A DNA stretch of 64,000 nucleotides. It comes from Cellulomonas soli. GTDB taxonomy: Bacteria; Actinomycetota; Actinomycetes; Actinomycetales; Cellulomonadaceae. Position numbers and translations under genes: made by a program. The notes beneath the pieces were generated by a model, which saw only the letters and a list, made by a program, of their open reading frames with translations, had not been told where the DNA came from and ran no database searches. This document shows, piece after piece, positions 6,216-12,119 of the stretch (within the stretch, counting starts at the first letter, position 1; every line of letters starts with the position of its first letter). The stretch is taken from NCBI RefSeq assembly GCF_013409305.1, contig NZ_JACBZJ010000001.1, positions 2,542,001-2,606,000 of the forward strand, given 5' to 3'.

Positions 6216-6896
6216 TCAGTCGCCCCCGGTCCCGATGCGCACCAGCCCCGACTGGTAGGCGGCGACCACCAGCTGGGCCCGGTCGCGCAGCTCGAGCTTG
6301 GTCATCGAGCGGTTCACGTGGGTCTTGACCGTGAGCGGGGAGATGACGAGGCGTTCGGCGATCTCGTCGTTGGTCAGACCCTCGGCGACCAGGGCGACGA
6401 TCTCGCGCTCACGGTCGGTGAGCTGGCCGAGCTGGGTGGGGATGCCGGCCGAGGCGACGCGGCTGGGCTGCGAGAGGAAGCTCGAGATGAGGGAGCGGGT
6501 GGCGGTAGGGGAGAGCAGGGCCTCGCCGGCGGCGACCAGGCGGATGGCGTCGAGCAGGTCGTCGGGGTCGACACCCTTGCCGAGGAACCCGCTGGCCCCG
6601 GCGCGCAGCGCCAGGTAGACGTACTCGTCGAGCTCGAAGGTGGTCAGGACGAGGACCTTGACGCCGGCGAGGTCCTCGTCGGCGCTGATCCGGCGGGTGG
6701 CCTCCAAACCGTCGAGGCCGGGCATGCGGATGTCCATGAGGACGACGTCGGCGCGCTGCGACCGGGCCAGGGCCACGGCCTCCTCGCCGTTGGCGGCCTC
6801 GCCGACGACGACGAGGTCCTCGGCGCTGTCGACCAGCACGCGGAACCCGGCGCGGATGAGGGCCTGGTCGTCGGCGATGAGCACTCGGACGGTCAT
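6216..6896 (-). CDS. NarL/LuxR-family response regulator
   Basis: A 226-residue response regulator. The receiver domain has the acidic pair DD near residue 9, the phosphorylated Asp at about residue 54 (VVLMDIRMPG), the conserved T in VLVLTT and the K in FLGKG. The C-terminal LuxR helix-turn-helix reads LTDREREIVALVAEGLTNDEIAERL. Its ATG overlaps the stop of the histidine kinase gene by 4 nt, so the pair is translationally coupled and is the last part of the ABC transporter operon. The probable target is that operon's own promoter. Confidence 0.92.
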   Translation of the reverse strand: MTVRVLIADDQALIRAGFRVLVDSAEDLVVVGEAANGEEAVALARSQRADVVLMDIRMPGLDGLEATRRISADEDLAGVKVLVLTTFELDEYVYLALRAGASGFLGKGVDPDDLLDAIRLVAAGEALLSPTATRSLISSFLSQPSRVASAGIPTQLGQLTDREREIVALVAEGLTNDEIAERLVISPLTVKTHVNRSMTKLELRDRAQLVVAAYQSGLVRIGTGGD

Positions 6897-8113
6897 CGGT
6901 CCTCCACGGTGAGGGGCAGCAGTGCGGCGACACGGAACCCGCTGTCGGGGGTGGGGCCCACCTCGAGCGTGCCGCCGGCAGCCAGGACGCGCTCGCGCAT
7001 GCCGACCAGTCCGAGGCCGGAGCCGATCGGCTCGTGCGGGGGATCGGCGGCACGGGCCGGCGACGTGCGGGGCGGGGCGACGTTGGTCACCGTCAGGAGC
7101 AGGTGGTCGCCCGAGGTCTCGACGCGGACCGTGGTGGGCGCGCCCGTCGCATGCTTCTGCACGTTGGTCAGCGCCTCCTGGACGAGCCGGTACGCCGCGC
7201 TGCCGGCGGCCGGGCTCAGGGTGGGCGTCGGCCCGGATGCCTCGACCCGGACGGGGGTGCCCAGAGCTCGTGCCGTGGCGACGAGCCCGGCCAGGTCGGC
7301 CAGCCCGGGGGCGGGGGCCGTGGGCAGCGCGGTCTCGTCCTGGCGGAGCACGCCGAGCACGGACTGCAGCTCGGCGAGCACGGACCGGGCCGAGCCGCGC
7401 ACGTGGTGCAGGGCCTCGCGGGCGCCTGCCGGGTCGCGGTCGATCAGGTGCTCGGCCACGCCGGACTGCACGCTGATCACCGCGACATGGTGCGCGATGA
7501 CGTCGTGCAGCTCGCGGGCGATCCGCACCCGGTCCTCGGCCACGCGTCGGCGGGCCGTCTCCTCACGGGTCTCCTCGGCGCGCAGCGCGCGGTCGGTGAG
7601 CGCCACCATCGTCGCGCGCCGGCTCGCGATCGCCAGCGCGACGGCCGTCGCCGTCCACAGCCACAGGACGACGTCGATCCGCCCCCACTCGCCGGTCCGC
7701 AGCCCCGCGCTGAGGACAGACGTGATCCCGAGCAGCACGGACGTGATCGCGGCGGCCCGCACGGCCCGGGTCCGAGGCTCGTGCAGCGCGTAGCCGAACA
7801 TCGCGAGGGTGACACCGAACTGGGCCAGGTTGACCTGCCAGCCACCGATCATCGCCACGAGGTTCGCCACGGACGTGACGACCAGCGCCACCAGCGGGAG
7901 GCGCCGCACCTGCGTCAGCGCCAGCGCGCACACCACCGTCAGGGCGATGTCGACGGCGGTGAGATCCAGGTCCATGCCGCCCTTGTGGCGCAGGCGCGCA
8001 GCCACCGCCAGCGGGACGAGCAGGAACGCGGCGCCGAGCGCGAGGCCCAGCACCGCGTCCACCAGGGACGGACGTCGCCGCAACCGCTCGACGACCGGCC
8101 GCCCGAGGATCAT
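6893..8113 (-). CDS. Sensor histidine kinase (HisKA_3 type)
   Basis: A membrane histidine kinase of the NarX/DesK class. Four or five hydrophobic segments fill the first 150 residues. Then comes the dimerisation/phosphoacceptor helix RIARELHDVIAHHVAVIS with the phosphorylated His near residue 202, and a HATPase_c domain with NVQKHATG (N box) and GSGLGLVGMRERV (G box). There is almost no extracytoplasmic loop, as in intramembrane-sensing kinases that respond to envelope stress. I chose ATG 8113; a GTG at 8122 would add three residues. It lies 28 nt downstream of the permease gene. Confidence 0.9.
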   Translation of the reverse strand: MILGRPVVERLRRRPSLVDAVLGLALGAAFLLVPLAVAARLRHKGGMDLDLTAVDIALTVVCALALTQVRRLPLVALVVTSVANLVAMIGGWQVNLAQFGVTLAMFGYALHEPRTRAVRAAAITSVLLGITSVLSAGLRTGEWGRIDVVLWLWTATAVALAIASRRATMVALTDRALRAEETREETARRRVAEDRVRIARELHDVIAHHVAVISVQSGVAEHLIDRDPAGAREALHHVRGSARSVLAELQSVLGVLRQDETALPTAPAPGLADLAGLVATARALGTPVRVEASGPTPTLSPAAGSAAYRLVQEALTNVQKHATGAPTTVRVETSGDHLLLTVTNVAPPRTSPARAADPPHEPIGSGLGLVGMRERVLAAGGTLEVGPTPDSGFRVAALLPLTVEDR

Positions 8114-8141
8114 GGCCGCCACCCTACGGACCGCGAGCTGC

Positions 8142-9017
8142 TCACACGTCGCGGCGCGTCATCGACACGACGGCCGCACCCAGCGCCGCGACGACCCAGG
8201 CGGCGAGCACCCAGGCACCCGCGCCCGCGCCGAGCACGTCGCTCCCGGCGCCCTGCACCGAGGTGAACGCCGAGGCCGCCGAGCTGGGCAGGTACGCCAG
8301 GACCGGGTCCCAGCTGTCGGGCAGCAGCGCGCCGGCCAGCGGGGGCAGCACCATGAACACCGCGACGACCGCGCCGATCGAGCCGGCGACGCTGCGCAGC
8401 AGGATCCCCAGACCCATGCCGATCAGACCGACCGCCGTGATGTAGGCGGCCATGCCGAGCACCTGGCGCAGCACGCCGTCGTCGGTCAGGGCGAGCGTGG
8501 CGGCGTCCCCGCCGGACAGGACGGCCATGCCGATCGCGAAGGCGCCCAGGACGCCGACCACGGAGACCACGACCGACACCGCACCGAACACGGTCGCCTT
8601 GGCGGTCACCACCTGCCAGCGCCGCGGTACCGCGGCGACCGTCGTGGCGATCATCCGTGAGCCGTACTCGCGCGCGCCGGCGAGCGCACCGAGGATCCCC
8701 ATCAGCAGGACCGCGAAGTTCGCGCCCATGAGGACGGTCGAGACCGGGTCCGCGCCGCCGAACGGGCCGCCGCCGTCCCCGCCCTCGGGGGTCGCGACCG
8801 ATCCCGTCGAGACCGCCGCGGCGATCGCGCCGAAGCCGACGAGCACGGCGAGCGTGGAGGCCAGACCGATCCAGGTCGAGCGCAACGTGCGCAGCTTGAC
8901 CCACTCCGACCGGATCGCGGTGCCCAGCCCCTGCGGGCGGACAGGTGTCGCGTCGTTCGGCCGGGTGGCCGCGGCATCGAGGGCGGGCAGGGGACGCTCG
9001 AGCGTGGTGGCGGTCAT
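8142..9017 (-). CDS. ABC-2 type transporter permease
   Basis: A 291-residue integral membrane permease. The N-terminal cytoplasmic segment with GLGTAIRSEWVKLRTLRSTWIGL is typical of ABC-2 permeases that pair with a separate ATPase in drug or peptide efflux. About six membrane segments follow. The ATG shares one base with the ATPase stop (TGATG). With the kinase and regulator downstream, the operon resembles antibiotic- or envelope-stress exporters. The substrate cannot be told. Confidence 0.87.
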   Translation of the reverse strand: MTATTLERPLPALDAAATRPNDATPVRPQGLGTAIRSEWVKLRTLRSTWIGLASTLAVLVGFGAIAAAVSTGSVATPEGGDGGGPFGGADPVSTVLMGANFAVLLMGILGALAGAREYGSRMIATTVAAVPRRWQVVTAKATVFGAVSVVVSVVGVLGAFAIGMAVLSGGDAATLALTDDGVLRQVLGMAAYITAVGLIGMGLGILLRSVAGSIGAVVAVFMVLPPLAGALLPDSWDPVLAYLPSSAASAFTSVQGAGSDVLGAGAGAWVLAAWVVAALGAAVVSMTRRDV

Positions 9018-10012
9018 CAGGCGGCCCTCCGGGCGGTCTCGTCAGGGGAAGGAGAGGGGGAGTGGGCGGAGGTCGGAGCGGGTGCGCCGGTCGGTCGGGC
9101 GTGGTGCTGGACCGTGCCCGTGTACTCCACGCTGTCGCGCGTGAGCTCCAGGTAGGCCGTCTCCAACGACGTGGTCTGCGTGAGCAGCCCGTGGATCCGC
9201 AGCCCGTGCGCGGCAGCCAGGTCGCCGATCACCTCGGCGCTCGCCCCACGGACCTCCAGGTGGTCGGCCCGCGAGGACGCCACGACCACGTCCGGCCCGA
9301 TGATCAGCGGTGCCAGCGCACCCGCGTCGGGCGAGATCACCTCCACCACCCCGGGCGAGGACGTCGCGATGAACGTGTCCATCGCGGTGTCGGCCAGGAT
9401 GCGCCCCTGCCCGATGACCAGCAGGTGCTCGGCGACGAGCTCCATCTCGCTCATCAGGTGCGAGGACAGCAGCACGGTGCGCCCCTCCGCAGCCAGCTCG
9501 CTCAGCAGCGCCCGGATCCACTGGATGCCGTCCAGGTCCAGACCGTTGACCGGCTCGTCCAGGATCAGCACGCCCGGGTCGGCGAGCAGCGCAGCCGCCA
9601 GGCCCAGGCGCTGACCCATGCCCAGGGAGAACGTGCCGGCCGCCTTGCCCGCGACCTCGGTCAGCCCGACGGTGCCCAGCACCTCGTCGACCCGGCGCGC
9701 CCCGATGCCGACCGTCGCGCCGAGCGCGAGCAGGTGGTTGCGCGCCGAGCGACCCTTGTCGACCCCCTTGGCGTCCAGCAGCGCGCCCACCTCCGCGAGG
9801 GGTGCCGGTGCGTCGACGTAGGGGCGCCCGTTGACCAGCGCGACACCGGACGTAGGGCGGTCCAGGCCGACGATCGCGCGCATCGTCGTCGACTTCCCGG
9901 CGCCGTTGGGACCGAGGAACCCGGTCACCACACCCGGCCGCACGATCGCGCTGACGGCGTCGACGGCCGTCTTGTCGCCGTAGCGCTTGGTCAGTTCCCG
10001 CAGCTCGATCAT
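9017..10012 (-). CDS. ABC transporter ATP-binding protein
   Basis: A 331-residue ATPase. Walker A is FLGPNGAGKSTTM, the signature region is FSLGMGQRLGLAAALL, and Walker B is GVLILDEPVNGLD. The last 100 residues form the regulatory tail seen in DrrA/CcmA-like drug and lantibiotic exporters. I set the start at ATG 10012 (MIELRELTKRYG), where the family begins; the frame stays open for 350 nt upstream but that part looks non-coding. It is the first gene of the exporter/two-component operon and lies behind a 26-bp palindrome. Confidence 0.92.
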   Translation of the reverse strand: MIELRELTKRYGDKTAVDAVSAIVRPGVVTGFLGPNGAGKSTTMRAIVGLDRPTSGVALVNGRPYVDAPAPLAEVGALLDAKGVDKGRSARNHLLALGATVGIGARRVDEVLGTVGLTEVAGKAAGTFSLGMGQRLGLAAALLADPGVLILDEPVNGLDLDGIQWIRALLSELAAEGRTVLLSSHLMSEMELVAEHLLVIGQGRILADTAMDTFIATSSPGVVEVISPDAGALAPLIIGPDVVVASSRADHLEVRGASAEVIGDLAAAHGLRIHGLLTQTTSLETAYLELTRDSVEYTGTVQHHARPTGAPAPTSAHSPSPSPDETARRAA

Positions 10013-10406: not shown

Positions 10407-10412
10407 TATCGT
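10407..10412 (+). promoter_or_regulatory. -10 box TATCGT of a leaderless transcript
   Basis: TATCGT followed by GGGCCC and then GTG at 10419. The 6-nt gap and lack of a ribosome binding site point to a leaderless mRNA and decide the start of the XRE-TPR gene. Confidence 0.55.
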
Positions 10413-10418
10413 GGGCCC

Positions 10419-11756
10419 GTGAGCCCACTGAGTCGTCGCGTCCGCGAAGCCCGTGAGCGGGCCGGGCTCAGCCAGGGTGAGCTGGCACGGCGCGCCGGGG
10501 TGCACCCCACGTACATCTCGCACGTCGAGAGCGGGCGGCGCTCGCTGGGCGAGGACGCGCTCGCCCGGATCGCGCAGGTGCTCGACCTGCCGTTCGCGTT
10601 CCTGCGGGACGGTGAGGCGGCGCCCGGCTACCAGAGCGCCGACACGGCGATCGTCGAGGCCCGCCGGCTGACCCGCACGGGTGACCCGAGGGGCGCGGCC
10701 GAGGTGCTCGCCGGCGTCGACGTCTCCGGGCTCGACGTGGACGCCGCGGCCCGGGTCGGCCTCGCGCACGCCGAGGCGCTCGACCTGGCGGGCGAGCTCG
10801 AGGCCTCGATCGACGTGCTCGAACGGCTGTGCGCCCAGCTGCTCGACGCCCACCGCTACGACCGCGCCGCCTACGCGGCGATGCGCATCGTCATGGCGCT
10901 GACCGAGGCCGCCGACCTGCACCGTGCGGTGGCCCGTGGGGAGGACCTGCTCTCCCGGCTGCCCGCCGAGGCGACCGCCGGTGACGAGGTCGTGCGCCTG
11001 GAGTCGACGATCATCTGGGCGTACGTGGCCCGCGGTGACACGACGTACGCGCGCTACCGCGGCGGACAGCTGCTCGCGCGGGCCCGCGCGCACGGCACCC
11101 CCCGGGCGGTCTCCTCCGTGCACTGGAACCTCGCGTTCGTCGACGACGCCCTCGGCGAGCCCGGCTCGGCGCTGCTGCAGATCGAGTCGGCGATCGCGCT
11201 CGCGGGCGTCGACGAGGTCGACCGCGACCTTCCGCGGCTGCGTCTGGACCGGGCGGTCCTGCTCGTCTCGGTGGACCCGCCACGGCCCGTCGAGGCGCTC
11301 GCGGACCTGGACGCCGCCCAGACGGCGCTCGAGATCGGCGAGTCGCAGGTCGAGCTGGCCCGGGCCGCATCGGTGCGCTCGCGGGCCCTGCTGCTGCACG
11401 GCGACCCGGAGGCCGCGGTGCGGTACGCCGAGCAGGCGGTCGAGCTGCTGCGCGACGGGGTGCGTCGTGACGCCGCCTCCGCCCACGAGGTGCTCGGCGA
11501 CGCGCTGCTCGCCCAGACCCTGAGCACCGAGGCCGTCAAGGAGTACCGGTCCGCGGCCGACCTGCTCGACATGATCGTCTCGGGACGTCCGGCGGCGACG
11601 CTGTGGCGCCGCATCGGCGACCGGTTGAGGCTGGCCGGTGACGACGACGCCCGGGTCGCCGAGGCCTACGGGCGGGCACTGGCCGCGGCGGGAATCCGGG
11701 GGGACATGCCGCCACGTCCGAGGCGAACGGGTCTGGAGATTCATCCGGACAGGTGA
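10419..11756 (+). CDS. XRE-family regulator with TPR-like domain (RRNPP-like architecture)
   Basis: A 445-residue protein. Residues 5-60 are an XRE helix-turn-helix (VREARERAGLSQGELARRAG, then HPTYISHVESGRRSL). The rest is a run of paired helices of TPR type, for example ARVGLAHAEALDLAGELEASI and HEVLGDALLAQTLSTEAVKEY. This is the size and order of Firmicute peptide receptors such as PlcR, NprR and PrgX. I chose GTG 10419 for the leaderless box; ATG 10389 is in frame. A gene for a short exported peptide starts 113 bp downstream on the same strand. Peptide binding is an inference from layout; many actinobacterial XRE-TPR proteins have no known ligand. Confidence 0.85.
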   Translation: MSPLSRRVREARERAGLSQGELARRAGVHPTYISHVESGRRSLGEDALARIAQVLDLPFAFLRDGEAAPGYQSADTAIVEARRLTRTGDPRGAAEVLAGVDVSGLDVDAAARVGLAHAEALDLAGELEASIDVLERLCAQLLDAHRYDRAAYAAMRIVMALTEAADLHRAVARGEDLLSRLPAEATAGDEVVRLESTIIWAYVARGDTTYARYRGGQLLARARAHGTPRAVSSVHWNLAFVDDALGEPGSALLQIESAIALAGVDEVDRDLPRLRLDRAVLLVSVDPPRPVEALADLDAAQTALEIGESQVELARAASVRSRALLLHGDPEAAVRYAEQAVELLRDGVRRDAASAHEVLGDALLAQTLSTEAVKEYRSAADLLDMIVSGRPAATLWRRIGDRLRLAGDDDARVAEAYGRALAAAGIRGDMPPRPRRTGLEIHPDR

Positions 11757-11804
11757 CGTTCCCGGGCTGTCTATGGCGCAGTCGTGTGCGTCATTGCATC
11801 CACG

Positions 11805-11829
11805 ACATCGGGTAGGGACCATGCGATGT
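11805..11829 (+). promoter_or_regulatory. inverted repeat around a -10-like box before the peptide gene
   Basis: ACATCG (11805-11810) and CGATGT (11824-11829) flank TAGGGA (11813-11818), a possible -10 hexamer. A second small inverted repeat, CCGGA-AAG-TCCGG, follows at 11833-11845. The layout suggests a regulated promoter specific to the peptide gene, but no good -35 box is visible. Confidence 0.35.
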
Positions 11830-11869
11830 GTGCCGGAAAGTCCGGTACGCCCATCGAAAGGTACCTCTC

Positions 11870-12004
11870 GTGAAGAAGCTCAGCATCGCCCTCGTCCTGT
11901 CCCTCGCCGCGCTCACCGGTGTCGTCGGCACCACGGCGTCCTCCGCCCAGCCGGCCGTGGCCTCGCCGTGCTGCAAGAACGTCATCACCATCGCCGTCCG
12001 CTGA
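11870..12004 (+). CDS. 44-aa exported peptide precursor
   Basis: Too short for most gene callers. GTG 11870 follows AAAGG (11857-11861) with 8 nt spacing. The product starts MKKLSIALVLSLAALTGVVG, a classic signal peptide, continues to an AVA cleavage site, and leaves SPCCKNVITIAVR or a slightly longer peptide outside the cell. The tail has a Cys-Cys pair. It lies directly after an XRE-TPR regulator, as pheromone genes lie after their receptors in RRNPP systems. A small bacteriocin or a disulfide-bonded secreted peptide is the alternative. A hairpin follows at 12023-12051. Confidence 0.65.
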   Translation: MKKLSIALVLSLAALTGVVGTTASSAQPAVASPCCKNVITIAVR

Positions 12005-12022
12005 CGCGGGGGGCTGTCCCGT

Positions 12023-12051
12023 CGCCGCGCCTGCACGAGCAGGGTGCGGCG
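12023..12051 (+). terminator. hairpin after the peptide gene
   Basis: Stem CGCCGC/GCGGCG plus CCTGC/GCAGG around the loop ACGA, with a small internal loop, starting 19 nt after the peptide stop. There is no T-run, as is usual in such GC-rich genomes. Confidence 0.45.
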
Positions 12052-12119
12052 GCGCGTGCGGCCCTCCGCCCGTCGGGCCCCCGGGCGCGTCCCGGCAGCT
12101 CCCGTGGCACGGTGGCGGG

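Follow-up and report, generated by a model that had tools for sequence, protein, structure and literature searches.

Peptide signalling of the RRNPP type is known mainly from Firmicutes; a receptor-then-peptide layout is also that of the AimR-AimP (arbitrium) system, which is phage-borne. One RRNPP survey covered Firmicutes (PMC9765709), and another covered Firmicutes and viruses (PMC10075063). The latter gives a five-point signature, namely a propeptide of 10-100 aa, a Sec signal, a receptor of about 250-500 aa, TPRs and direct neighbourhood of the two genes; it also describes the signals of Actinomycetota as small molecules made by enzymes, with peptides as the Firmicutes way (PMC10075063). 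Repeated pheromones in one precursor are described for RRNPPA systems (PMC9765709, PMC11343458). Among the papers listed for searches of the open PMC literature, none described such a system from Actinomycetota, and the peptide sequence strings returned from open PMC papers, among the matches listed, nothing related by title or abstract.

Here we consider a gene pair in the window, i.e., the whole 64-kb stretch of actinobacterial DNA that was analysed. An XRE-HTH and TPR regulator is followed, 113 nt past its stop and on the same strand, by the gene of a small peptide of exported type (Table 1). The layout that a sequence-only reading had described for this pair was borne out; the same is true of the peptide gene's own Shine-Dalgarno sequence, of the hairpin after that gene, although the latter lacks a T-run, and of the clear signal sequence. 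Signal peptides were judged throughout by a rule of thumb (charge, hydrophobic core, AxA-like site).

Table 1. Features of the regulator-peptide locus (window positions)
Feature	Position	Strand	Details or basis
XRE-HTH + TPR regulator, candidate intracellular peptide receptor	10419..11756	+	445 aa, GTG start
Box GTCATTGC-N17-GGGACCAT, conserved; candidate promoter or operator for the peptide gene	11790..11822	+	
Inverted repeat gtgccgga-AAG-tccggtac	11830..11848	+	Operator or 5'-UTR hairpin; RNA fold z -3.9
Shine-Dalgarno-like GAAAGG	11856..11861	+	Sequence
44-aa pre-pro-peptide gene MKKLSIALVLSLAALTGVVGTTASSAQPAVASPCCKNVITIAVR	11870..12004	+	GTG start, 44 codons
Signal-sequence part, residues 1-26	11870..11947	+	Rule of thumb; S-S-A cleavage site by eye
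Predicted exported tail, residues 27-44, with conserved PCCK core (11966-11977)	11948..12001	+	Orthologue comparison
Strong hairpin 3' of the peptide gene, no U-tract	12006..12069	+	-56.3 kcal/mol, z -5.2

Compared with the five-point signature, the locus looks as follows. The propeptide has 44 aa, and most relatives have 28-100 aa (a few multi-copy precursors of family f6 reach 166 aa); the signal is of Sec type by the rule of thumb; the receptor has 445 aa; the regulator and peptide genes adjoin. The TPRs are present in the AF2 model, the window protein itself scoring below the cut-offs of the Pfam TPR models and the relatives L262 and L120 exceeding them (TPR_12 and TPR_14). The HTH is recognised by Pfam directly (HTH_3 9.9e-16, HTH_31 5e-15). 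A prediction of the TPR structure had been proposed; the AF2 model (mean pLDDT 94.1) consists of the HTH and then 18 helices, which by our reading of the model are nine TPRs. It aligns with TPR proteins, RRNPP folds among them; however, LGN, APC/C and MalT score like the RRNPP folds, so the fold matches are not specific, and a viral structure library returned generic TPR proteins. The regulator matches the PlcR profile at E 5e-8 over positions 3-189, a match carried partly by the HTH.

PlcR-PapR and NprR-NprX of the Bacillus cereus group differ from the present pair in belonging to another phylum. The model has nine TPRs here, the pheromone gene is found on either side of the receptor gene and on either strand, and the cores are PCCK, GxxGCC(R/K), -CC or GNWPD. 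To our knowledge, none of the known RRNPP pheromones has any of these cores.

The association of the two genes was seen at all 30 loci read first (L001-L030, from a search of 58 genomes, among the matches listed): next to each regulator there is a small ORF of exported type whose tail carries Cys-Cys. Twelve of these loci form the orthologue group of the window gene (itself and 11 others, 58-78% identical), and in 12/12 the peptide gene follows the regulator on its strand; 16 represent a second Cellulomonas regulator family (37-42% identical), where it lies upstream on the same strand in 16/16; the remaining two belong to other families of the order, and their peptide gene is divergent in one case and upstream in the same orientation in the other. 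The peptide was kept in 16/16 Cellulomonas loci taken from named records (L031-L046, eight of which share contigs with L002-L009), while five other window genes, namely the DUF1206 gene, two ABC genes and, as identified by eye, one kinase gene and one resembling diacylglycerol kinase, were found within 2.5 kb in none of the 16 at E <= 1e-8; hence, the pair travels as a unit. It persists in spite of the varying position of the peptide gene relative to the regulator (downstream, upstream on the same strand, divergent or convergent). Conservation of the two genes goes far beyond what chance would give, and none of the other neighbours compared is conserved with them. In the window, minus-strand genes for a kinase-like protein (by eye), an ABC permease and an ABC ATPase lie just upstream of the regulator (6893-10012), and a DUF1206 protein is encoded downstream of the peptide gene.

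Since the first scans used a CC rule and were therefore circular, a scan ignoring CC was run, which required of an ORF a signal-like sequence, a length of 34-70 aa, a Shine-Dalgarno sequence and a distance of at most 450 nt from the regulator. At regulator scores of at least 230, such an ORF was present at 138 of the 158 distinct loci; the C-terminal conservation anticipated by the sequence-only reading was seen as CC in the last 14 residues of 141/150 signal-like ORFs, with CC no part of the rule, and seven of the nine ORFs lacking CC have the alternative tails of family f35. At scores below 230, the ORF was found at 7/41 loci, six times with CC. As to the background, a loose scan of the window gave two CC ORFs and a tight scan only 11870-12004. 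Under a further rule, the window has 10 signal-like small ORFs, of which this one alone has CC; 16 control loci (63,409 bases; 14 own-genome loci from other searches and two viral contigs, not a random draw) have 27, with 1 CC and 0 WP; and 280 family loci (1,331,719 bases, not deduplicated) have 498, with 191 CC and 39 WP. The window CC scans, the CC-blind scan and these background rates rule out a chance ORF. When 150 of 306 candidates in the own genome were scored with a profile of 60 peptides, two full-length matches (E 2e-8 and 2e-6) were obtained, at 3134751 and 2553873, each next to one of its two full-length regulators; a further 16 matches are weaker and mostly concern the signal part inside long frames.

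As to the peptide itself, its frame is also open from an alternative start at 11828 (58 codons), but it is the start of M(K/N)K- or MK- type that the orthologues have in common. Tails diverge faster than signals in 4/4 peptide groups, and the group of the window peptide is weakly constrained (pN/pS 0.78, tail 0.86). As far as sequence comparison goes, the tail is a fixed short core in variable surroundings. Its mature form might be QPAVASPCCKNVITIAVR, SPCCKNVITIAVR or a shorter piece. Neither NCBIfam nor Pfam offered a convincing known family: for 60 peptides the best E was 0.0018 and 0.0042, respectively, and no family matched more than 3/60. The peptide profile gave 18 matches at E <= 1 among 5.8 billion proteins, the names shown being 'hypothetical protein' or none.

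A RiPP or bacteriocin precursor, made on the ribosome and then modified, could also be short, present in several copies and provided with Cys residues, and one match was to a bacteriocin-type NCBIfam family, BLB8/JUQZ-1 (NF053514). This candidate was rejected: it scored 14.7 bits, far under the cut-off of 40 (E 0.028, residues 1-33 only). The signal is of Sec type, unlike a RiPP leader, the family searches above gave no consistent match, and none of the five flanking genes compared is conserved with the pair (0/16); we consider this explanation very improbable.

Vicinal cysteines could bind metal or form a disulphide, and this speaks for another possibility, namely that the regulator senses something else and controls an adjacent secreted peptide that is itself an effector, be it antimicrobial or active on metals, redox state or the cell wall, with the CC as its active part. 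The conserved sites upstream of the peptide genes would fit such control, as would the several tandem peptide genes at L010, L011 and L040. The tails, however, are not always of CC type: WP tails are found in family f6, at the f17 locus L327 and at 10/23 loci outside the class, the short core is repeated within the precursor in f6 and L327, and receptors devoid of the HTH keep their peptide neighbour. We therefore regard a secreted effector as unlikely. Rows of two to five peptide genes were observed at L002, L004, L005, L010, L011 and L040; at L010, L011 and L040, four to five tandem CC-peptide genes with differing tails stand behind a single regulator.

The evidence for a pheromone comes to a large extent from family f6, in which 30 of 61 genomes gave a match and 30 loci were obtained. 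At 19 of the 30 loci the divergent precursor carries 2-8 tandem cores of GNWPD/GDWPH type: 3x GNWPDPM (L262), two copies (L263, L264), 4x GNWPDP (L267, L268), 5x GNWPDA (L270), 8x GDWPH/GNWPH (L273), 6x GDWPH (L275), 8x VGNWPDRF (L286) and 2x NNNWPL (L290, L291), among others. The remainder includes five clear single-copy precursors (e.g., VGYWPF), a doubtful one (L284), WP-ended frames without a clear signal (L276, L281) and three loci where the peptide is none or doubtful (L277-L279; only a 16-residue WP-ended frame at L278). Judged on the sequences, the tandem cores inside one precursor are the decisive clue for the pheromone reading. By eye, six of the f6 receptors start without an HTH (L280, L283, L285, L287-L289), Pfam finding neither HTH nor TPR in that of L285; receptors with and without the HTH have the same xWP tail type. 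In both respects f6 resembles Rap-Phr, where the TPR receptor has no HTH and precursors can carry repeated cores, cf. Phr105/Phr3T (PMC11343458); unlike Rap-Phr, f6 is actinobacterial, has up to eight copies, and shares xWP tails between HTH-bearing and HTH-less receptors.

With the pair conservation, the repeated f6 cores and the HTH-less receptors in its favour, the RRNPP-like receptor and pheromone proposed from the sequence alone gained support, and we believe that such a system in Actinomycetota is, with good confidence, the best explanation.

The peptide was also looked for more widely. The proposal to check relatives for a small exported ORF was followed in a census of 253 distinct loci (255 minus the double entries L207 = L262 and L215 = L264), with rules that were fixed but after-the-fact and class labels set once the sequences had been seen. 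In Cellulomonadaceae the peptide was present at 87/88 loci. Other families of the class gave 54 CC and 4 WP among 75 loci; the 17 loci without an ORF include several rule misses or contig-end cuts. Outside the class, 13/23 loci were positive (10 WP, 3 CC) and 10/23 had no ORF. Peptides missed by the census rules are visible at L085, L121, L137, L148, L161, L168, L169, L263 and L276. Probable chance labels are one CC in f6 and one WPrepeat in f37. In the order-wide search, scored by rules close to, not identical with, those of the census, there were 29 new loci, of which 20 were read (the rest had been read before) and 18/20 were positive; without L329 (= L217) and the already-seen peptides L302 and L303 the count is 16/17, the new miss being L312. 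The f17 locus L327 has a precursor with 3x GGSWPT.

Class-wide, the regulator was found at E <= 1e-15 in 85/394 genomes, and 110 of the 116 places listed were taken (the omitted ones being the window's own gene and five that were short, at contig ends or overlapping); tails ending in -CC include WPGMCC, PGEFCC, HPPTCC, NVWCC and GGIWCC. The phylum-wide search matched 40/396 genomes at E <= 1e-20, other classes among them; 30 loci were read, and divergent peptides of about 28-35 aa in other classes end in NWPHVP, GWPKH, PWPPCC or PWPHCC. The related pairs across Actinomycetota suggest a widespread cell-to-cell signalling system. Family f38 was identified as Jiangellaceae by a 92%-identical Jiangella protein; its loci L120, L127, L129 and L132 have two peptides, the divergent one and, after the regulator, another exported CC peptide in convergent orientation (...DGGSDFCC type).

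CC as the defining mark of the family had to be abandoned, as WP and AANAGP tails exist and the CC-blind scan says likewise. In a subclade of f35 the signal is kept and tails of GWNHPG/GWVYPG type stand in place of CC; receptor-tail covariation there (7 vs 7 rows, i.e., few) gave eight positions that separate the two groups, helices A4-A5 containing two of them. In f37, with genomes of 6-10 Mb, a divergent exported ORF with a AVAALVTAANAGP-like core, a variable hydrophilic tail and neither CC nor WP lies by the XRE-TPR gene at L205, L206, L208-L210, L213, L252, L255, L257 and L258. Families f37 and f6 were discarded as negative controls, since f6 has WP precursors and 8/15 distinct f37 loci in the census have the AANAGP-type exported ORF. 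For the same reason the receptor set 'f37none' (15 rows, including two of f6) is to be called CC-less only, not peptide-less; the second CC-less set comprises 14 rows of f35 second copies, with no peptide found there. Twelve receptor positions are conserved in the CC type and below 30% in these two sets, nine of them between residues 197 and 287.

No small exported ORF was found beside the related XRE-TPR regulators of f35 at L138, L139, L141 and L178-L195, the census giving 0/22 distinct loci for f35 second and DUF5685-type copies. We presume that the Cys-rich ORF behind L138 and L139 resembles DUF5685-type proteins. Considering these copies, the other census misses and L277-L279, some members of the regulator family may function with no peptide encoded next to them.

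A mobile-element origin of the window gene was considered and rejected, as no full-length viral or phage relative was found: viral contigs gave two HTH-only matches, phages one match over 23%, and plasmids one over 57%, which is a Nonomuraea chromosome filed as a plasmid (with a divergent peptide, ...MTGDAGCC). The window pair shares the receptor-then-peptide gene order with AimR-AimP, and differs from that phage-borne system in having no such relative. The f6 receptor matched 19 plasmid records, 17 of them of Streptomyces, with five matches over at least 80% of the length at 25-28% identity; the Streptomyces, Embleya and Dermacoccus records H3-H17 are distant plasmid relatives of it.

Turning to the flanking DNA, the claim of a promoter region with inverted repeats stands in part: the repeat is there, as is a conserved box, and a sigma-70 scan of the locus found no promoter. 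The degenerate Cellulomonas box pattern has a single occurrence in the 4.26-Mb genome, before the peptide gene, so the regulon search found no further target of the regulator. In 19/20 distinct orthologue leaders, the first peptide gene is preceded at a distance of 17-22 nt by an inverted repeat of this type, with paired changes in several; the exception is L007, where the script picked another repeat. The terminator scan was empty because the hairpin after the peptide gene has no T-run. The varying layout and the conserved upstream sites point to control of the peptide gene by the receptor.

A hydrophobic ORF of about 40 aa with hairpins around it might also be a small membrane peptide, a type-I-toxin-like ORF or a leader/attenuator ORF, with no secretion involved. 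The signal with its AxA-like site and the C-terminal core argue otherwise, and the multi-copy f6 cores are hard to reconcile with it; we find this idea scarcely credible.

For the RRNPP-like system we propose the following course of events, whose steps of export, trimming, re-import and groove binding are taken from the RRNPP design that it has in common. The small gene would make a pre-pro-peptide, whose N-terminal signal is seen in the sequence. Export by Sec and cleavage by signal peptidase would leave the 18-aa tail, perhaps trimmed further around PCCK-NVITIAVR. The peptide would be re-imported, probably via an Opp-type importer (eight SBP_bac_5 proteins over the cut-off in the own genome are candidates), and would bind the concave TPR groove of the adjoining regulator. 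Binding may alter the contact of the XRE domain with the conserved sites before the peptide gene, and the outcome would be a density-dependent autoregulatory switch.

More broadly, Actinomycetota probably own a phylum-wide peptide quorum-sensing superfamily of XRE-TPR receptors and TPR receptors lacking the HTH, each with an exported pheromone of its own. Their core, Pro-x-Cys-Cys or Trp-Pro in hypervariable surroundings and in up to eight copies per precursor, would be read by a conserved patch of TPR 4-6. This superfamily would be older than the split of the phylum's classes, and presumably it escaped notice owing to the tiny size of its genes and the restriction of RRNPP surveys to Firmicutes and viruses. 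Among the Actinomycetota are producers of antibiotics and bacteria that abound in soil and water; if the proposal is true, a peptide receptor and pheromone family across the phylum would be an added regulatory layer addressable with short synthetic peptides. As the putative pheromone adjoins its receptor and many such pairs are given here, specificity is directly testable.

Two minor observations concern regulator copies. The f15 contig C158 (G901) carries four regulator relatives in tandem, three of which match only beyond the HTH start. The second regulator of the own genome is 40% identical to that of the window (L111 1174-1317 and 1501-2820, C1:3134751-3136388) and has an upstream CC peptide, ...SGGASGCCKQ; a relative of this locus (L013 3137-3397) adjoins a gene that we take by eye to be that of ribosomal protein S20.
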